DNA of 39,877 nucleotides from IMG/VR virus record IMGVR_UViG_3300036861_000355, positions 1-39,877 of that record, one strand, 5' to 3'. The stretch comes from a virus. Both the position numbers and the translations under genes were made by a program. Positions 2,372 to 27,098 of the stretch are shown piece by piece; the first letter of the stretch is position 1; each line of letters begins with the position of its first letter. The notes beneath the pieces were generated by a model. The model ran no database searches, had not been told where the DNA came from, and saw only the letters and a list, made by a program, of their open reading frames with translations.

Positions 2372-2448
2372 TGGTAGCGCAGACGGGACTTAAACCCGTA
2401 GTCTTTTGATTGAAAGTCAAATGAGTTAGTCGGTTATTCTACTGCGCC
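2372..2448 (-). tRNA. tRNA-Glu: tRNA-Glu (anticodon TTC)
   Basis: 77 nt including an encoded CCA. Acceptor GGCGCAG pairs with CTGCGCT (one G-U). The anticodon stem TTTGA/TCAAA closes the loop CTTTCAA, giving anticodon UUC. The T-arm is ACGGG-TTTAAGT-CCCGT. The D-stem has one mismatch. Its 5' end overlaps the last codons and stop (TAG) of the upstream RlaP-like gene by 10 nt, so tRNA processing would cut that mRNA. Confidence 0.93.
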
Positions 2449-3242: not shown

Positions 3243-3817
3243 AACAAATGTGTCTTGAAGTTATTCTAGTCGCTATTGCCCAGGTAGCCTTGCACTTTCT
3301 GCTCTCGTGTGTAGCCTGTCGCTGAAGCATAAGACCCTTCACTCTGAGAATGTTGGGGAGACTGGGGCCACGTAAGGTGCTAGCTATTACGATGTCCTTA
3401 CTCCGCGCTTTCGCACTGACCGTCGCCGGCGCGCTGAGCGGCTCGCTCGGCTGTCTCCCCTATGCTTTCTAGGATGCTCCGTTGTATTCTGTCCTTACTA
3501 TGCCCCCTAGTCAAGGGAATTCCCTAAGAAAGGCGTATCCAAGACCCGCCCTTCTAGTCTAAAGACTCCGATTCTAAGTTCTAGCCCTTGGGTTAATACT
3601 TCCGACAGACTTTCCAGAGAAGGGGCCGCCTAAGCAGCCTCTATGATATCCCCAGACTTCTGCCTCTCCCAGAGGGACTGAGTCTCTTAGAAAGGGACTC
3701 CTTACTAAAAGAACTTTCTAGAAAACCCCCACTATAGGCCCAGAAAAAGCAGGCCAAGGTAGGGACCTCCCACACGGGCTGCGTTTCACCTCCGACTCCC
3801 TTGACTAGGAGTTATTC
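3243..3817 (-). ncRNA. large structured non-coding tract, ~575 nt
   Basis: No gene of credible size on either strand. On the minus strand the RNA folds into many local helices: GGGGAGAC (3453-3460) with GTCTCCCC (3354-3361) encloses a ~90-nt domain containing GAGCG-AGC-CGCTC, GUGC-GAAA-GCGC (GNRA loop) and GTAAGG/CCTTAC. Elsewhere are GGCUGC-UUAG-GCGGCC, AGTC-TTTA-GACT inside CCAAG/CTTGG, GAGTC/GACTC, GAAAG/CTTTC and ACTCC/GGAGT. Size, ornate folding and tRNA proximity recall the phage-associated ROOL and GOLLD RNAs, but I cannot confirm either. It could also be a long 5' leader of the RlaP-like gene. Confidence 0.55.
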
Positions 3818-13705: not shown

Positions 13706-14158
13706 ATGAGAGTATACGAGAGAACTAGGCTTCATAGAATAGCCGCTAAGATGGTGCGGCAGAAGGTGAGTCTTAGGCAGGCAGTTGTAGATTTGAACCT
13801 AGACCCCGTTACTCCTGAGGAGGCAATTAGACTTGAGGAGTCCCCCGCTTTTCAGGAATGCTTCACTAAGGAGCTTTATAGGTTTTTTAAGGAGTTAGGG
13901 GAGGACGTAGATAGGAATAAGGGAGCACTAGTTGGGGAGATGCTTTACTGTGTAAGGAAGCTGACTGAAGAGGGCTCCTACGACAAGGCTTTAGAGGGAT
14001 TGTTTAAGATTGCTAGGGTAGAGGGGCATGTGGGTGGAGAGTCGAATGTCAATGTGTTTGCTAATGTTACCGCCAAGGACATAGAGGAGGCTCGAAAAGA
14101 GCTTAGTAAGAATGGGAAATCCACTTCTAAGGGAATTGTCCAAGATACCATCCAGTAA
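13706..14158 (+). CDS. terminase small subunit-like protein
   Basis: About 150 aa, first rightward gene, overlapping terL by 47 nt. An N-terminal helical, basic part (RLHRIAAKMVRQKVSLRQAV) resembles a helix-turn-helix DNA-binding head; the centre is helical and the C-terminus is a charged tail. Assignment rests mainly on position, size and fold type. A GTG one codon earlier is an alternative start. Confidence 0.7.
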   Translation: MRVYERTRLHRIAAKMVRQKVSLRQAVVDLNLDPVTPEEAIRLEESPAFQECFTKELYRFFKELGEDVDRNKGALVGEMLYCVRKLTEEGSYDKALEGLFKIARVEGHVGGESNVNVFANVTAKDIEEARKELSKNGKSTSKGIVQDTIQ

Positions 14159-15623
14159 GGATGCCCTGGCAGTACTGGAGGCTTTTGAGAAGAAGCGCCG
14201 GGAGGACTACTTTGTTAAGTACTGGGGTCCTACGGAGCATCAGAAGCAGGTATTTAGTGAATTTACCTCTGAAGTTAAGACGTTTGTGGTAAGAGGGGGC
14301 AATAGGAGTGGGAAAACTGAGCTTGGGGCCGCTATGACTATGGCCTGGGCCTTAGGGAAGGAGTATTTTAAGGGAGAATCAGCCTGGGAGTGGGTAAAAG
14401 ACCTCCCCATACCAACTCCACCGAATAATATCTGGATAGTAGGGTTGGACTTCCCTATGGTAAGGGATGTCCTGTGGGGGGAGAAGCTTAGAAGGGGTAG
14501 AAATCACCCCCCGATGCTCCCCAAGGACCCAGAGGTAGTAGTTAAGGTGTCGGATTCGGAGTATCAGGTAGTTTTCTTCAACGGGAGTATGATTACTTGT
14601 AAGTCGGCGGATTCTGGAAGGGAAAAGTTCCAGGGAGCTTCAGTAGACTTTATTTGGATAGACGAGGAGCCGGATGTAGATATTTACAATGAATGCTACC
14701 AGAGGACTGTAGACTGTGCCGGGAAATTGCTAGTTACCCTTACTCCCCTTACGGATATGTCTTCTGGAGTAAAGGTTCCTTGGGTTTATGAGCTTTCGGA
14801 GGGAGTTAAGAGTGGGGCGATTAAGAATGTTAAGTTTTTTAGTCTTTCGGTAATGGACAATCCCTTTGTGCCGGAGGAGGAGAAGGTAGAGCTTCAGACG
14901 AAGTGGGCCAACCATCCTGAGGAGAGGGCAAGACTTTACGGGGAGTTTATTCAGAGGAGTGGGCTAGTTTATCCGATGTGGAATTCCAAGGTTCATATAG
15001 TCAATAGCTTTAGGAGTCCCAGGAGTTGGTTTAGGGTGGCGTGTATTGACCCTGCTCCAGTAGGTACTACAGCGGCCCTGGGAGTAGTAATTGAACCTGG
15101 GAGTAACGACTACTACTTTGAAAGGGAGTATTACAAAGCAGATCAAACAGTCTCGGACCATGCTAAGGATATTCTAATGGCCTTTAGGGGGGAGCCTGTG
15201 GATGTTTGGTTGATAGACCCTAAAGCGGGGGCTCAGAAGCAAGCGGAGAGTCACAAGACTATACAGCAGCTTTATAGGGACAACGGAATTCCAGTTAGAC
15301 TCGCAGAACTAGACGAAGACTATGGAAGAAGTGCTATGGGGGAGTATCTCTCGGCGAGTTTGTCTGCGAATTCTAGAGGACCCAAGGCTTTTGTGATGCA
15401 GCATCTAGCTAACTTTAGAGAAGAAATAGCTAGGTATGTTTGGGCATTTTATGGTAAGGGAGAACTAAAGGGATTGAGTAAGGAGAAACCAGTGAAAAGG
15501 CGGGACCACCTAATGAATTGCGCGCAATACTTATGCGCTATGAAGTTTAAGTCTAGGATTAGGGCTTCTGTCTTAAGTCAACAGGAAGTAGCCCAAACTG
15601 CTAGGTTTAATAGTTATACTTAA
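14112..15623 (+). CDS. terL: terminase large subunit
   Basis: 503 aa. Walker A is VRGGNRSGKTE (residue ~62-72); Walker B is VDFIWIDEEPD (residue ~180); the coupling motif region follows at LVTLTPL. The C-terminal RNase H-like nuclease carries VACIDPAP (~315) and WLIDPKAG (~370) as acidic sites. It packages DNA into the prohead, powered by ATP, and cuts the concatemer. Full-length for the family. The start overlaps the upstream gene; a later start is possible but would shorten the N-terminal adaptor part. Confidence 0.95.
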   Translation: MGNPLLRELSKIPSSKDALAVLEAFEKKRREDYFVKYWGPTEHQKQVFSEFTSEVKTFVVRGGNRSGKTELGAAMTMAWALGKEYFKGESAWEWVKDLPIPTPPNNIWIVGLDFPMVRDVLWGEKLRRGRNHPPMLPKDPEVVVKVSDSEYQVVFFNGSMITCKSADSGREKFQGASVDFIWIDEEPDVDIYNECYQRTVDCAGKLLVTLTPLTDMSSGVKVPWVYELSEGVKSGAIKNVKFFSLSVMDNPFVPEEEKVELQTKWANHPEERARLYGEFIQRSGLVYPMWNSKVHIVNSFRSPRSWFRVACIDPAPVGTTAALGVVIEPGSNDYYFEREYYKADQTVSDHAKDILMAFRGEPVDVWLIDPKAGAQKQAESHKTIQQLYRDNGIPVRLAELDEDYGRSAMGEYLSASLSANSRGPKAFVMQHLANFREEIARYVWAFYGKGELKGLSKEKPVKRRDHLMNCAQYLCAMKFKSRIRASVLSQQEVAQTARFNSYT

Positions 15624-17545: not shown

Positions 17546-17622
17546 GCCGGAGTAGCTCAAATTGGTAGAGCGGCTGTTTTGTAAGCAGCGGGTTGGGAGT
17601 TCGAGTCTCTCCTTCGGCCCCA
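17546..17622 (+). tRNA. tRNA-Thr: tRNA-Thr (anticodon TGT)
   Basis: 77 nt with encoded CCA. Acceptor GCCGGAG/CTTCGGC; D-arm GCTC-GAGC; anticodon stem GCTGT/GCAGC with loop TTTGTAA, giving UGU; T-arm GGGAG-TTCGAGT-CTCTC. All arms pair well. Confidence 0.94.
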
Positions 17623-21609: not shown

Positions 21610-23640
21610 ATGGCTGATATTACAGTAACTAAAGACGAGATAGTAAAGAGAGTCACAGGGCATCTGACTCGGATGCGAAACTTCCGCAGACCCTATGACC
21701 CTAAGAGAAGTCTTTTCTACAGACAATACGTAGGACAAAGGGACCCTCTCTATTTTCCTGATAAGACTACTCCCAGGAGCAATACTTCAGTACAGTATCC
21801 ATTCTCAAATGTAGAAACAACTGTAAGTAGAGTACACGATGCATTCTTTAGCTTCCCGCAGTGGTTTGATTGTAATGGAAGGGGAGAAAACGATAGCGAG
21901 TCTGCCGAACGAATGCAGACTGTCTTGGAGGCTAAGCTTAAGGCTTCCAGGGCAATAGAAGCCATAGAAGACTTAGCTAGAACTATCTCTATCTACGGCC
22001 ACGGGGCGCTGAAGGTAGACTGGGACTGGGGTTATGATACAGTTATTGCTACTATTCCCCAACCAGCCATAGATCCAAATACTGGACAACCTTTAATTGA
22101 CCCCACTACCGGGCAACCAGTAATTGCCGGATACTCAGTCGAACCTCAGAATATCCCTAGGAATAGACCTAAGTTTATACCTATTGATATCTATGATCTA
22201 CTCTTAGACCCAGACGGGGGGATGGCGGCCCACCTAACAGAAAAGAGCCTAGGGCAACTACTCTCAGAAGCCTCCACTAGAGATGACCTCTACTTCCCCG
22301 AGGGCATCCAAGAACTCCAGTCTAAGCTTAGAGATGAAAAGACCCCGGCGGAAATCATAATTAGGATAGCAGAATTTTGGAATGAGCACGACAAGACAGT
22401 TACTATCATTACTTTTAATGATAGCGAGGCGATTGCATGGAAGGACAGAAGGGCTGCCTACAGGGCAGCTTCCTACTCTGCCTTTAGAAACAAGGTCTAC
22501 GGGGGTCCGCCTATTGTTCTATATCATGGTCCGAATCCCTATCCTCACGGACGGATTCCTATTCTCCATACTAGCTATGTTAGACTTCCTAATGAAGTAT
22601 ATGGAATAGGAGTCATAGAACCCATCTCGGACATGACTGAGAGTCTGAGTAAGTTTGTGAGTATGGTGGTAGATAACTGGAACCTAGGAATTAACAAGAG
22701 ATTTGCCTACGACACAGGAGCAGACATAGATCACCTAGCCCTAAGACAAGCAAATGTCCCAGGGGGAATGGTGGGAGTGAGTGGGGATCCGAGTAAAGTA
22801 ATTTATCCTCTTCCCTCCTTTACTCCACAGGCAGGAGACTATAGTATTATTGAACTATACCGAGGACTAATTGAAATGACCTCGGGGATAAGTGACTTCT
22901 ACTCTAAGGGAGTAGGAAGTGGTGGGAGTAATGAGACTGCCACAGGAATCAATCAAATTATAGGAGAGAGTAATTATAGGTTTAAGTTGTTTATTAGGAA
23001 TATAGAAAACTTCATCCTTCAGCCTATGCTTTCTATGTGCGCTTCTATGGTACAGAAGTATGTAACTGATGAGGAGGAATTTCTCATTACTGATGCTCCT
23101 CCAGGGATTCCGAAGTATTTGAAGGTTAGGCCCCAGGAACTAACAGGGAACTTCAACTTTGACATAGTAGCGGCTTCTTACGCTACCAACAAAGTCATAA
23201 GACAACGAAATCTTATGGCCTTTGTGAATGTGGTGGGTCAGAGCCAATACTGGAATGAGTACGAGGCCCTGAAGGAACTCGCTAAGGTATTTGAGATCAA
23301 GAACATAAACAAGCTCCTAAAGACTCCAGAACAAGTAGCTCAGGAGCAGCAACAGCAGCTACTACAGCAGATTCAAATCCAAGAGGAGATGGCTAAAGCT
23401 GAACACGCTAGAAATGCAGAGAAGATTCTCCTCCAAGGAGCAGTAAACACTGAAGCTAAAGCTAGACTTGAGAAAGCTAAACCTAGACCCATAGGTCAGG
23501 GTGGCGCTAAGGGAACTCCTGGGAGAAGGGCTCAGTTTGAAGGAAAGGTCCCAGGCGCAGGCTTAACTTCAACCATCAGAGACCTAGCCCAAAACATGGG
23601 AGCTAATGCTCTAGGTCTAGAGGGAATAGAGGGCGGATAG
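21610..23640 (+). CDS. portal protein
   Basis: 676 aa, at the expected place upstream of scaffold and capsid. Typical podovirus portal features: an early aromatic/basic region (FYRQYVGQRDPLYFP), a wing domain, HTSYVRLPNEVYGIGVIEP followed by SDMTESLSKFVSMVVDNW, the conserved entry to the clip/stem, a GVGSGGSNETATGINQIIG segment, and a Gln-rich coiled C-terminus. Forms the dodecameric DNA gate and head-tail junction. Full-length. Confidence 0.9.
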   Translation: MADITVTKDEIVKRVTGHLTRMRNFRRPYDPKRSLFYRQYVGQRDPLYFPDKTTPRSNTSVQYPFSNVETTVSRVHDAFFSFPQWFDCNGRGENDSESAERMQTVLEAKLKASRAIEAIEDLARTISIYGHGALKVDWDWGYDTVIATIPQPAIDPNTGQPLIDPTTGQPVIAGYSVEPQNIPRNRPKFIPIDIYDLLLDPDGGMAAHLTEKSLGQLLSEASTRDDLYFPEGIQELQSKLRDEKTPAEIIIRIAEFWNEHDKTVTIITFNDSEAIAWKDRRAAYRAASYSAFRNKVYGGPPIVLYHGPNPYPHGRIPILHTSYVRLPNEVYGIGVIEPISDMTESLSKFVSMVVDNWNLGINKRFAYDTGADIDHLALRQANVPGGMVGVSGDPSKVIYPLPSFTPQAGDYSIIELYRGLIEMTSGISDFYSKGVGSGGSNETATGINQIIGESNYRFKLFIRNIENFILQPMLSMCASMVQKYVTDEEEFLITDAPPGIPKYLKVRPQELTGNFNFDIVAASYATNKVIRQRNLMAFVNVVGQSQYWNEYEALKELAKVFEIKNINKLLKTPEQVAQEQQQQLLQQIQIQEEMAKAEHARNAEKILLQGAVNTEAKARLEKAKPRPIGQGGAKGTPGRRAQFEGKVPGAGLTSTIRDLAQNMGANALGLEGIEGG

Positions 23641-24904: not shown

Positions 24905-25238
24905 ATGTTTAGAAGTTTAGTTAAAGTTGTATTTAGTGTCCTCGGCTTCGGCGCGGATGTAATTACTGTGACTAGTGGTACTGCTGGTAATGCTGGAAGT
25001 ACTGCGGCAGAGTTAATTACCTTCATGTCAGCTACTATGCTGGATGTTGCCGAGTTGAACACAATTTTGAACCAGTTCGGAGACAAGCAGCCTCTTCCTG
25101 AGAATTCTAGTTTAACCATTAGGTTTACTAGACAGGAGAAGTTTACTGTCCCCACTACCCCCACTCAGCTTGTTCAGGGTGTTGCGCCTGATGCTTCTGG
25201 GTTGACAATCAACCAAGTTGAAGCTACGGCGGAGCAGT
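24905..25238 (+). CDS. major capsid protein, exon 1 (codons 1-111 plus 1 nt)
   Basis: N-terminal third of an N4-gp56-like capsid protein; ends ...INQVEATAEQ and one T. The unspliced frame would run 23 codons into the intron and stop at 25306. Splicing to 25801 and then 26529 gives a continuous 338-aa protein: exon lengths 334 + 113 + 570 keep the frame. The join reads TAEQ|FYDGFLVRISDL, matching the family pattern where TAEQ-F is followed by ISDLAELT. RBS GGAAAGGA upstream. Confidence 0.88.
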
Positions 25239-25800
25239 TAGTTAAATGTTACCATGCTGCTCAAAAATCGTTTCTAAATATCATGGAAAGCTACGGGTTA
25301 AATTAACCTATGCTAATCAGAGGGAAGATAGAGAGAGAAGATCTAGTATATGCTGCGTGTGCCTTTGAGTGTGAGGGTTCTATAACATTCTCTAGAAGTA
25401 TTACTTCTAAGGGATGGTATCAGATAACGCCCTTCGTCTCGATTGCCAATGTAGATGATAGGTTAGTTAATTGGCTCCAAAGTAAATTTGGAGGCCATAT
25501 TCTAACAGAGCAACCTAAGAAACTTTCAAAACGAGTTATTTATCGTTGGAAGGTTTATTCTGGTTATTGTGTAGATTTTCTTAATCTCGTTCTACCTTAT
25601 CTAAAGTTTAAACAGGATCGTGTAAAGCTAGTAATTGACTTTTGGGCGAATAGAAGTACACTTTCACGTACACAAAAGGATAACTACTGGCTTCGGTTGA
25701 AGGCTTTAAATAAGGGAGAGTCACCCGCAGAGACTAAACGAAACGATGCAGAAACCAATCTGCAAAGCGATAGTCCGACTCTGGTGGAAACGCCAGTCAG
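25239..25800 (+). ncRNA. group I intron 1 in the capsid gene (562 nt)
   Basis: P1: exon GAGCAGU (ending 25238) pairs fully with the guide GCUGCUC at 25256-25262, with the diagnostic U-G at the cut site. Core strands of P7 lie at AGAGACTAA (25729-25737) and GATAGTCC (25769-25776). P9 is CTGGTG-GAAA-CGCCAG just before the end. The intron ends in G (25800). It carries the endonuclease at 25310, whose frame runs through the core and stops at 25807 inside exon 2. Confidence 0.85.
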
Positions 25801-25807
25801 TTTATGA
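25310..25807 (+). CDS. LAGLIDADG homing endonuclease (intron 1)
   Basis: 165 aa with a single motif, YAACAFECEGSI (residues ~14-25), the degenerate LAGLIDADG helix with its acidic residue; single-motif enzymes work as homodimers. Beta-strand region VSIANVDDRLVNWLQSKFGG follows, as usual. The last ~35 residues are read from the intron's catalytic core. Cuts intronless capsid genes to spread the intron. No clear RBS; a GGTTAAATTAACC palindrome precedes the ATG. Confidence 0.85.
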   Translation: MLIRGKIEREDLVYAACAFECEGSITFSRSITSKGWYQITPFVSIANVDDRLVNWLQSKFGGHILTEQPKKLSKRVIYRWKVYSGYCVDFLNLVLPYLKFKQDRVKLVIDFWANRSTLSRTQKDNYWLRLKALNKGESPAETKRNDAETNLQSDSPTLVETPVSL

Positions 25808-25913
25808 TGGATTCTTGGTTAGAATCTCTGACCTCGCTGAACTAACCGCTCGACATAACGTTGTTGAGCGTACTATGTATATTCTTGGATTGCACGCGGC
25901 AGAGGTCTACGAT
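25801..25913 (+). CDS. major capsid protein, exon 2 (113 nt)
   Basis: Encodes FYDGFLVRISDLAELTARHN, then VVERTMYILGLHAAEVYD, the best-conserved part of N4-gp56-like capsid proteins. It is too short to be found as a gene and has no start codon of its own. Flanked by two group I introns; the exon ends CTACGAT, which forms P1 of intron 2. Confidence 0.86.
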
Positions 25914-26528
25914 TTGAACTAACTGGTCGTAGTAAAATCTGACTATATCGGTGGATCTCTCTTTAAGGAGACAATACCGAGGAAAGACCGAAATAATGAA
26001 AGATAATTGGCCGTATTTGGCCGGAATCCTTGATGGAGAAGGTTGCTTGCATATCGCTAAGTTTACTGCAAAGAACCAATGGGGAAAGCAATACCCCGAA
26101 ACCTTGCGTCTAGACATTCACATTACAACCACTTGTTTTAAGTTGACTAAGTGGTTGAATGTTAACTTTGGTGGAACTTATTACCACATTCCAATGGATA
26201 AGTATAGTCCAAAATGGAAAGATGCATGGCGTTGGCAGCCAAGTGGCAAGAAGAACAAAGAACGACTACTTCTTGGCACTCTTCCATATTTAATTATCAA
26301 GAGAGAATTGGCAGAAATATGTTTACAGTTCCTAAAGGCTCATACTGAAAAACGAACTGTAGATTGTTTAGAACTTTGCCAGAAAGCACGGGAGTTATCC
26401 CGTCGCGGTCGCTCCGTAGAGACTAATACGTCAGACTCAACATTACTTGTTGAGAAGATAGAGTCCGAACTCATTAGTGATAATGAGAGTGCATCAGCAG
26501 TGATGCTGAATGCCTAAACACTATACAG
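25914..26528 (+). ncRNA. group I intron 2 in the capsid gene (615 nt)
   Basis: P1: exon CUACGAU (ending 25913) pairs with the guide GUCGUAG at 25926-25932, again with a U-G at the cut site. Core strands AGAGACTAA (26418-26426) and GATAGAGTCCGAACTC (from 26457) closely match intron 1, so the two are related. Ends in G at 26528 (ACAG|TTG). A cut three bases later would also keep the frame. Confidence 0.84.
25996..26517 (+). CDS. LAGLIDADG homing endonuclease (intron 2)
   Basis: 173 aa from ATG 25996 (AGGAAAG upstream); a longer frame begins at 25951. Motif LAGILDGEGCLHI at residues ~9-21 is a clear single LAGLIDADG helix with both acidic residues. LDIHITTTCFKLTKWLNVNF follows as the DNA-contacting beta region. 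The C-terminus is read from the intron core. Related to, but clearly diverged from, the intron 1 enzyme. Confidence 0.9.
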   Translation: MKDNWPYLAGILDGEGCLHIAKFTAKNQWGKQYPETLRLDIHITTTCFKLTKWLNVNFGGTYYHIPMDKYSPKWKDAWRWQPSGKKNKERLLLGTLPYLIIKRELAEICLQFLKAHTEKRTVDCLELCQKARELSRRGRSVETNTSDSTLLVEKIESELISDNESASAVMLNA

Positions 26529-27098
26529 TTGATTTTCAATGTAATTGACGCCGCAACTAATGTCTATAGACCTAATGGTAGGGCTACCGACATTACTCTG
26601 CTTGCGTCTGACTTGATTGGCTACAATGACCTAGTGGCGCTTGAGGCTCTTCACATGGATCAGGGCGCACGTCCAGTTCAGGACGGGCTCTTTGCCTTTG
26701 TGACCCCGCCTCAGGTGTATGCGGGTCTTCAGAAGGACCCTGACTGGAAGTCTAGTCATCAGTTTAGGGACCCCGAGAAGATCTGGCGAGGAGAAGTCGG
26801 AGACTTGGCAGGAGTTGCAGTAGTTAGAACTAATGCTCCTGGATTCTCTCCCACTGCTCAGTCTACTTCGGGTGTGACTAACAAGGTCTATAGTTCTTTC
26901 ATTATAGGCCGACAGGCTTATGCTATCACAGACCTTCAGGGCCTTAGGGTATATACTATCGCTCCTGGTGGTCATGGGGACGAACTCTATCAGAATCGCA
27001 AGATTAGTTATAAGTTTGCGTTCAAGAGCGTGATCTTGAATCAGAACTGGATTCGTAGAGTGAGATCTTCGGGTGCTAATTCTGTAAATACTCCGTAA
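26529..27098 (+). CDS. major capsid protein, exon 3
   Basis: 189 codons plus stop. Joins as ...AAEVYD|LIFNVIDAATNVYRPNGRA. Contains LHMDQGARPVQDGLFAFV and GEVGDLAGVAVVRTNAPGF, both typical positions in the N4-gp56 capsid family, and a C-terminal strand set. Alone it lacks a proper start (the frame opens on TTG without an RBS), which is a further sign that the gene must be spliced. Confidence 0.88.
   Translation: MIFNVIDAATNVYRPNGRATDITLLASDLIGYNDLVALEALHMDQGARPVQDGLFAFVTPPQVYAGLQKDPDWKSSHQFRDPEKIWRGEVGDLAGVAVVRTNAPGFSPTAQSTSGVTNKVYSSFIIGRQAYAITDLQGLRVYTIAPGGHGDELYQNRKISYKFAFKSVILNQNWIRRVRSSGANSVNTP

Follow-up and report, generated by a model that had tools for sequence, protein, structure and literature searches.

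A phage major capsid gene with two group I introns, one of which probably ends in A

The window analysed here, the whole 39,877-bp IMG/VR virus record IMGVR_UViG_3300036861_000355, carries an N4-gp56-type major capsid protein (MCP) gene at 24905–27098. Two group I introns split this gene, and inside each lies an I-CreI-like LAGLIDADG gene. We put at roughly 70% the probability that both introns are mobile and are spliced out to give a normal 337-aa MCP, and that intron 2 belongs to a lineage of phage introns residing mostly in major capsid genes, some members of which end in A instead of G, with the 3' splice site set mainly by P10.

Anatomy of the split capsid gene

Upstream of the MCP gene lie a terminase gene (14112–15623) and a portal gene (21610–23640). 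The genome also has tRNA genes at 2375–2448 (- strand) and 17546–17619 (+ strand), scoring 58.8 and 60.7 bits. The parts of the MCP gene, and the evidence by which they were placed, are as follows.

24905–25238, + strand: MCP exon 1, 334 nt, 3' end ...GAGCAGT (protein continuity with intronless relatives, P1 pairing)
25239–25806, + strand: group I intron 1 (i1-type), 568 nt, last base G25806 (P1, P10, AEQYGFLV restored exactly)
25310–25807, + strand: intron 1 endonuclease gene, 165 aa, single-motif LAGLIDADG (PHROG 5046, E = 3.9e-18)
25807–25913, + strand: MCP exon 2, 107 nt, ATGGATTC...TACGAT, encoding (Y)GFLVRISDLAELTARHNVVERTMYILGLHAAEVYD (no gaps against 19 relatives)
25914–26525, + strand: group I intron 2 (i2-type), 612 nt, last base A26525 on the preferred reading (P1, P10, Gln148, recurrence of ATA/CAG, the slash marking the junction)
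25996–26517, + strand: intron 2 endonuclease gene, 173 aa from ATG 25996, with a longer GTG start at 25951; I-CreI-like, motif YLAGILDGEG
26526–27098, + strand: MCP exon 3, 573 nt including the stop, beginning CAG TTG ATT TTC (alignment, TIGR04387 score of the joined protein)

The junctions were compared with intronless MCP relatives, first a set of seven and later 19 close ones in an alignment that includes the window; 72 distinct uninterrupted relatives belong to the same MCP clade. A search for host relatives with the MCP alignment across 84,980 bacterial and archaeal genomes returned none. The joined 337-aa product is gap-free around both junctions and scores 143.5 bits against NCBIfam TIGR04387 over residues 37–327 of 337 (curated cut-off 60 bits over full length), which places it in the N4-gp56 family.

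A preliminary description of this DNA had joined exons of 334, 113 and 570 nt into what it called a perfect N4-gp56-like protein of 338 aa, with both introns ending in G. The family, the length of exon 1, two of the four splice-site coordinates and the terminal G of intron 1 stand, whereas the end of intron 1 and the start of exon 3 had to be moved. The 338-aa product had two residues too many at junction 1 (AEQ-FYD-GFL, against AEQYGFL in the relatives) and was one residue short at junction 2 (YD-LIFN, against YDQLIFN or YDILIFN). Its joins scored 123.1 bits, rising to 134.0 bits when only junction 1 was corrected. Protein length, HMM score and P10 all spoke against junctions at 25800/25801 and 26528/26529, which were rejected.

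Two group I introns with a 7-bp P1 ending in U·G at each 5' splice site, matching P7 strands and a LAGLIDADG gene apiece had also been proposed, and all of this was borne out, with N4-gp56-family exons and covarying cores as further support. The core elements located in the two introns, all on the + strand, are listed by the position of the first element.

25267–25273: intron 1 P3 5' strand ATCGTTT, pairing with AAACGAT at 25741–25747 (sequence; the RF00028 alignment spans the 3' half)
25732–25736: intron 1 P7 5' strand GACTA, pairing with TAGTC at 25771–25775 (sequence and RF00028 alignment)
25938–25943: intron 2 P3 5' strand TCTGAC, pairing with GTCAGA at 26430–26435 (five of six pairs with compensatory change across 13 relatives)
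26421–26425: intron 2 P7 5' strand GACTA, pairing with GAGTC at 26461–26465 (four pairs, last position A·G)
26470–26487: intron 2 P9 hairpin CTCATTA-GTGA-TAATGAG (compensatory change in six of seven pairs)
26494–26509: intron 2 P9.1 TCAGCA-GTGA-TGCTGA (compensatory change in five of six pairs)

P1 with U·G, a core of P3–P7 pseudoknot, P4 and P9, and the P7 G-C pair identify the introns as group I. Against Rfam RF00028 the two introns scored 18.7 bits (intron 1) and 20.5 bits, below the threshold of 50, and endonuclease-free relatives scored 50–66 bits; we attribute the low scores to the endonuclease insertions.

Intron 1 is a conventional group I intron. Its P1 pairs exon bases GAGCAGT (25232–25238) with the internal guide GCTGCTC (25256–25262) over 7 bp with U·G at the end, and its P10 pairs ATGG (25807–25810) with CCAT (25252–25255) next to the P1 guide, the standard P10 geometry. 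Moving the intron end from 25800 to G25806 yields AEQYGFLVR, in which AEQYG is invariant in 20 MCPs, and leaves the intron with a terminal G.

The 3' end of intron 2 and its relatives

The P1 of intron 2 likewise has 7 bp, between exon bases CTACGAT (25907–25913) and the guide GTCGTAG (25926–25932), and ends in U·G. When exon 3 starts at 26526, the product reads EVYDQLIFN and CAG encodes Gln148, a residue present in 16 of the 19 close relatives. The last base of intron 2 is then A26525, and at this boundary P10 pairs CAGTT (26526–26530) with AACTG (25921–25925) plus a G·U, adjoining P1; the 6 bp including the wobble ranked top among 25 shifts (p = 0.003). All four introns at this capsid site (window, L108, L099 and its copy L109, L132) read ATA/CAG, and the P10 of L108 keeps its pairing with a changed sequence (CAGC with GCTG, against CAGT with ACTG). 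In textbook group I introns a terminal G is near-universal. Because intron 2 lacks it on the preferred boundary, we classed it as a group I variant and not as a standard member. A shifted 5' site (GATTTG/TTG, giving DLLIF) scored 141 bits, but it replaces U with G and leaves no U·G.

An in-frame G lies three bases downstream of A26525, and the preliminary description had ended intron 2 there, at G26528 of the CAG, so that the MCP would go without Gln148. That boundary preserves a conventional terminal G, and the product stays in frame and still reaches 134 bits with junction 1 corrected. It is nonetheless an unlikely boundary: it takes one residue out of a region in which 19 relatives align without gaps, it leaves the CAG of P10 inside the intron, and P10 from TTG consists of a single pair (G·T, followed by a T/T clash). 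All four introns at the site keep the CAG, and the introns of L088 and L093 have no nearby in-frame G, so the family would need a terminal A regardless.

The reading with A26525 as the last base was compared with related introns. A DNA pattern of the P7 region retrieved 29 contigs with an i2-type intron, and nearly all placeable ones lie inside major capsid genes, from several different MCP groups. For 17 of these introns both splice sites could be set by protein continuity and P1, which has 6–7 bp in every case. The terminal base is G in ten of them and A in seven; the A-ending introns, and an eighth, are given below.

Window, L108, L099: same capsid site, TACGAT/CAG
L088, L093: IH/P motif, CAT/CCT; the IHPF motif is intact in the intronless L006
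L103: GCT/CAA
L104: TGT/AT
L132 (eighth): at the capsid site of the window

At the junctions CAT/CCT (twice), GCT/CAA and TGT/AT no nearby G keeps the protein, and L088 and L093 lack a downstream G that would restore the frame. L104 and L115 share an insertion site, with 3' ends A and G, respectively, and the i1-type intron of L099 also ends in A (GTCTA/CAGTTC). Most members terminate at the sixth base beyond a conserved CCTAAACA-like motif, A-ending and G-ending introns alike, so the A occupies the usual position of the G.

This recurrence bears on whether decay or mis-assembly gave intron 2 of the window a G-to-A change at its end, in a genome that splices poorly, is dead or is chimeric. The window itself is known from one record only. 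However, at least eight introns, drawn from different metagenomes, share the terminal A, L099 is repeated identically over more than 5 kb by L109 from a separate metagenome assembly, and the endonuclease and capsid frames of the window are intact, which makes decay or mis-assembly improbable.

All seven A-ending introns have 3–6 contiguous P10 pairs at the boundary, and in six of the seven the best P10 falls exactly there, while the ten G-ending introns have 5, 1, 3, 0, 1, 0, 0, 0, 0 and 4 pairs. P10 was longer in the A-ending introns (Mann-Whitney, one-sided p = 0.0036, post hoc, related introns); since the test followed the spotting of the pattern and the introns are related, we treat the correlation of P10 length with terminal base as a lead. 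L115 combines a terminal G with a 5-bp P10, and i1-type introns of the clade, read by hand, often pair a long P10 with G ends (L066, 5; L068, 4; L070, 4), so a long P10 alone does not imply a terminal A.

The cores of 13 i2-type introns covary. Of their cells, 94.8% are paired, compared with 76.2% in shuffles, and compensatory change is seen in 17 of 28 pairs (71 cells, against 20 in shuffles); when the partners were slid by one to three columns, pairing fell to 31–37%. Compensatory changes occur in P3, P4, P9 and P9.1, with P3 and P9 clear, and the support for P7 is partial (four of five positions, some A·C). That the locus holds no introns at all, with the 133-aa 5' frame and the 189-aa 3' frame as separate proteins around two free-standing endonuclease genes, is scarcely credible: these frames are open in the unspliced DNA, but exon 2, the most conserved part of the MCP, would go untranslated, the gene is uninterrupted in 72 relatives, and covariation links the paired strands of the group I core.

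The G-C pair of the guanosine-binding site in P7 is invariant in all 13 cores, among which we found no change of the guanosine pocket that explains the terminal A. An A·C neighbouring this pair in five members does not track with the terminal base. With the G-C pair unchanged, A is expected to bind poorly in the second step of splicing. By analogy with known group I introns, each ribozyme would cut the transcribed precursor RNA at its own U·G with guanosine and then join the exons. For intron 2, a strong P10, in which the 3' exon lies on the guide beside P1, would be the main element presenting the 3' site, rather than a terminal G in the guanosine pocket; an A would fill the pocket in the second step.

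Endonuclease genes inside the introns

Both predicted endonucleases resemble I-CreI and I-MsoI in their single LAGLIDADG motif, similar length and profile matches; they differ in lying in phage capsid introns and in having a C-terminal tail from the ribozyme core, and their activity is a prediction. In PDB profile searches the intron 1 protein (profile A4) matched an engineered I-CreI chain (1e-7) and I-CreI (0.003), and the intron 2 protein (profile A3) matched I-CreI (1e-6) and an engineered I-CreI-type chain (2.7e-14). With the motifs YLAGILDGEG and ACAFECEGS, these matches assign the proteins to the I-CreI type of LAGLIDADG endonucleases, although the intron 2 protein reaches only 13.6 bits against Pfam LAGLIDADG_1, under the cut-off. 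Both frames match PHROG 5046, which is labelled HNH endonuclease; since they also match I-CreI, that label looks like a mislabel. Annotated LAGLIDADG relatives of the intron 1 protein occur in Streptomyces phages. A direct protein search of IMG/VR gave no homologues of it, and they were recovered through a DNA pattern instead. A relative of the intron 2 protein, 53% identical, lies in the L009 capsid gene.

The C-terminal tails of the two proteins are translated ribozyme core (window 25733–25807 and 26413–26517), so that the same bases must satisfy protein and RNA constraints together. In intron 1 the 3' part of the gene doubles as ribozyme core, and the stop codon TGA (25805–25807) straddles the junction of intron 1 with exon 2. 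The tail in the i2 family reads SVETNTLD...IESELIGDYESAP, and the TAA within the conserved CCTAAACA motif, which precedes the 3' splice site, serves as the endonuclease stop codon. The GAGGAAAG of the P4–P6 region (window 25974–25996) stands where a ribosome-binding site for the ATG of the intron 2 endonuclease would be, and for this reason folding of the intron and translation of its endonuclease may be mutually exclusive.

In mixed infections the endonucleases presumably spread the introns to capsid alleles that lack them. The intronless MCP sequence TACGATCAGTT is a candidate substrate of the intron 2 endonuclease. In L099 and L109 the site-D intron has lost most of its endonuclease gene and kept the ribozyme ends, suggesting that this A-ending intron must still splice after its loss of mobility.

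Introns in the capsid gene clade and in other phages

Two introns in one capsid gene had been noted as a dense case, and this holds, but the clade as a whole is an intron hot spot that had been overlooked. Among 92 distinct loci of the MCP clade the gene is continuous in 72 and interrupted or incomplete in the other 20, and the introns occupy about nine sites, numbered here in MCP residues of the window.

Site ~22: L010, L091, L101
Site 50: L182
Site 56/57: L010, L066, L068, L070, L099, L132, L078
Site 59: L072–L076, L121
Site 112: window intron 1
Site ~126: L121
Site 147/148: window (intron 2), L099, L108, L132
Site 150: L009, L082
Sites ~281 and 300: L078, L081

Two introns in one MCP gene occur in L099 and L109, L132, L010, L078, L121 and L103; thus, they are common in this clade. 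In L103 (minus strand) a 231-nt A-ending intron is followed by a short exon and a second P3–P4-like signature (CTATATCGGTGG), indicating a capsid gene with at least two closely spaced introns. L078 (710–1800) has two introns near the 3' end of the MCP gene around an exon of ~54 nt or slightly more, and its second junction region, near residue 300, has an in-frame stop and does not point to one splice site. The residue 50 intron of L182 (1913–3000), with apparently two LAGLIDADG motifs, can be read with a 5' exon ending in G and a terminal G, or with a 5' exon ending in U, a terminal C and a 3-bp P10. In L082 a 34-nt insertion (3328–3361) at residue 133 (GAGCGT/AATTATGGTGCGCTCCTAAGCGTCATACACTAAG/ACC) breaks the MCP frame; it has a P1-like pairing with U·G (GAGCGT with GCGCTC) and a terminal G, and may represent the bare ends of a shrunken intron, a bypassing element or an assembly scar.

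Phage Twort, as Landthaler and Shub reportedly described in 1999, has several group I introns per gene with very short exons; like the window it combines multiple group I introns in one phage gene, but that gene is said not to be a capsid gene and the intron ends to be conventional. Introns in capsid genes are already known (PMC3706429). In mycobacteriophage LittleE a group I intron in the major capsid gene, with splicing demonstrated by RT-PCR, likewise contains a LAGLIDADG-like endonuclease gene (PMC3706429); it differs in being a single intron with the endonuclease on the opposite strand, a conventional terminal G and another MCP family. Lactococcal phage Tuc2009, as cited in PMC3706429, has a group I intron in a capsid-subunit gene, again a capsid-related gene, with a single intron and in another phage group. 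Experiments on group B IStrons show that group I ribozymes can use a non-standard base at a splice-site position formerly held to be near-invariant (PMC4227781), but there the unusual base is a G replacing U at the 5' splice site, not one at the 3' end. To a specialist, the recurrent terminal A would be the surprise; no natural group I introns with one were found in the open-access literature searched, which is not proof of absence.

We lean towards a capsid-specialised lineage of phage group I introns that exchanged the terminal G for A several times, with the guanosine pocket unchanged and P10 carrying the choice of the 3' site. If this is true, the terminal G would be replaceable and not required in a natural group I intron, and, if splicing is confirmed, natural introns lacking it would allow a direct test of how the second step depends on it and of its substitution by P10. 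Rules that demand a terminal G in intron finders and annotation will misplace or miss such junctions, as happened in the preliminary description. Capsid genes are standard markers for phage classification, and in affected phages such annotation will split or lose them.
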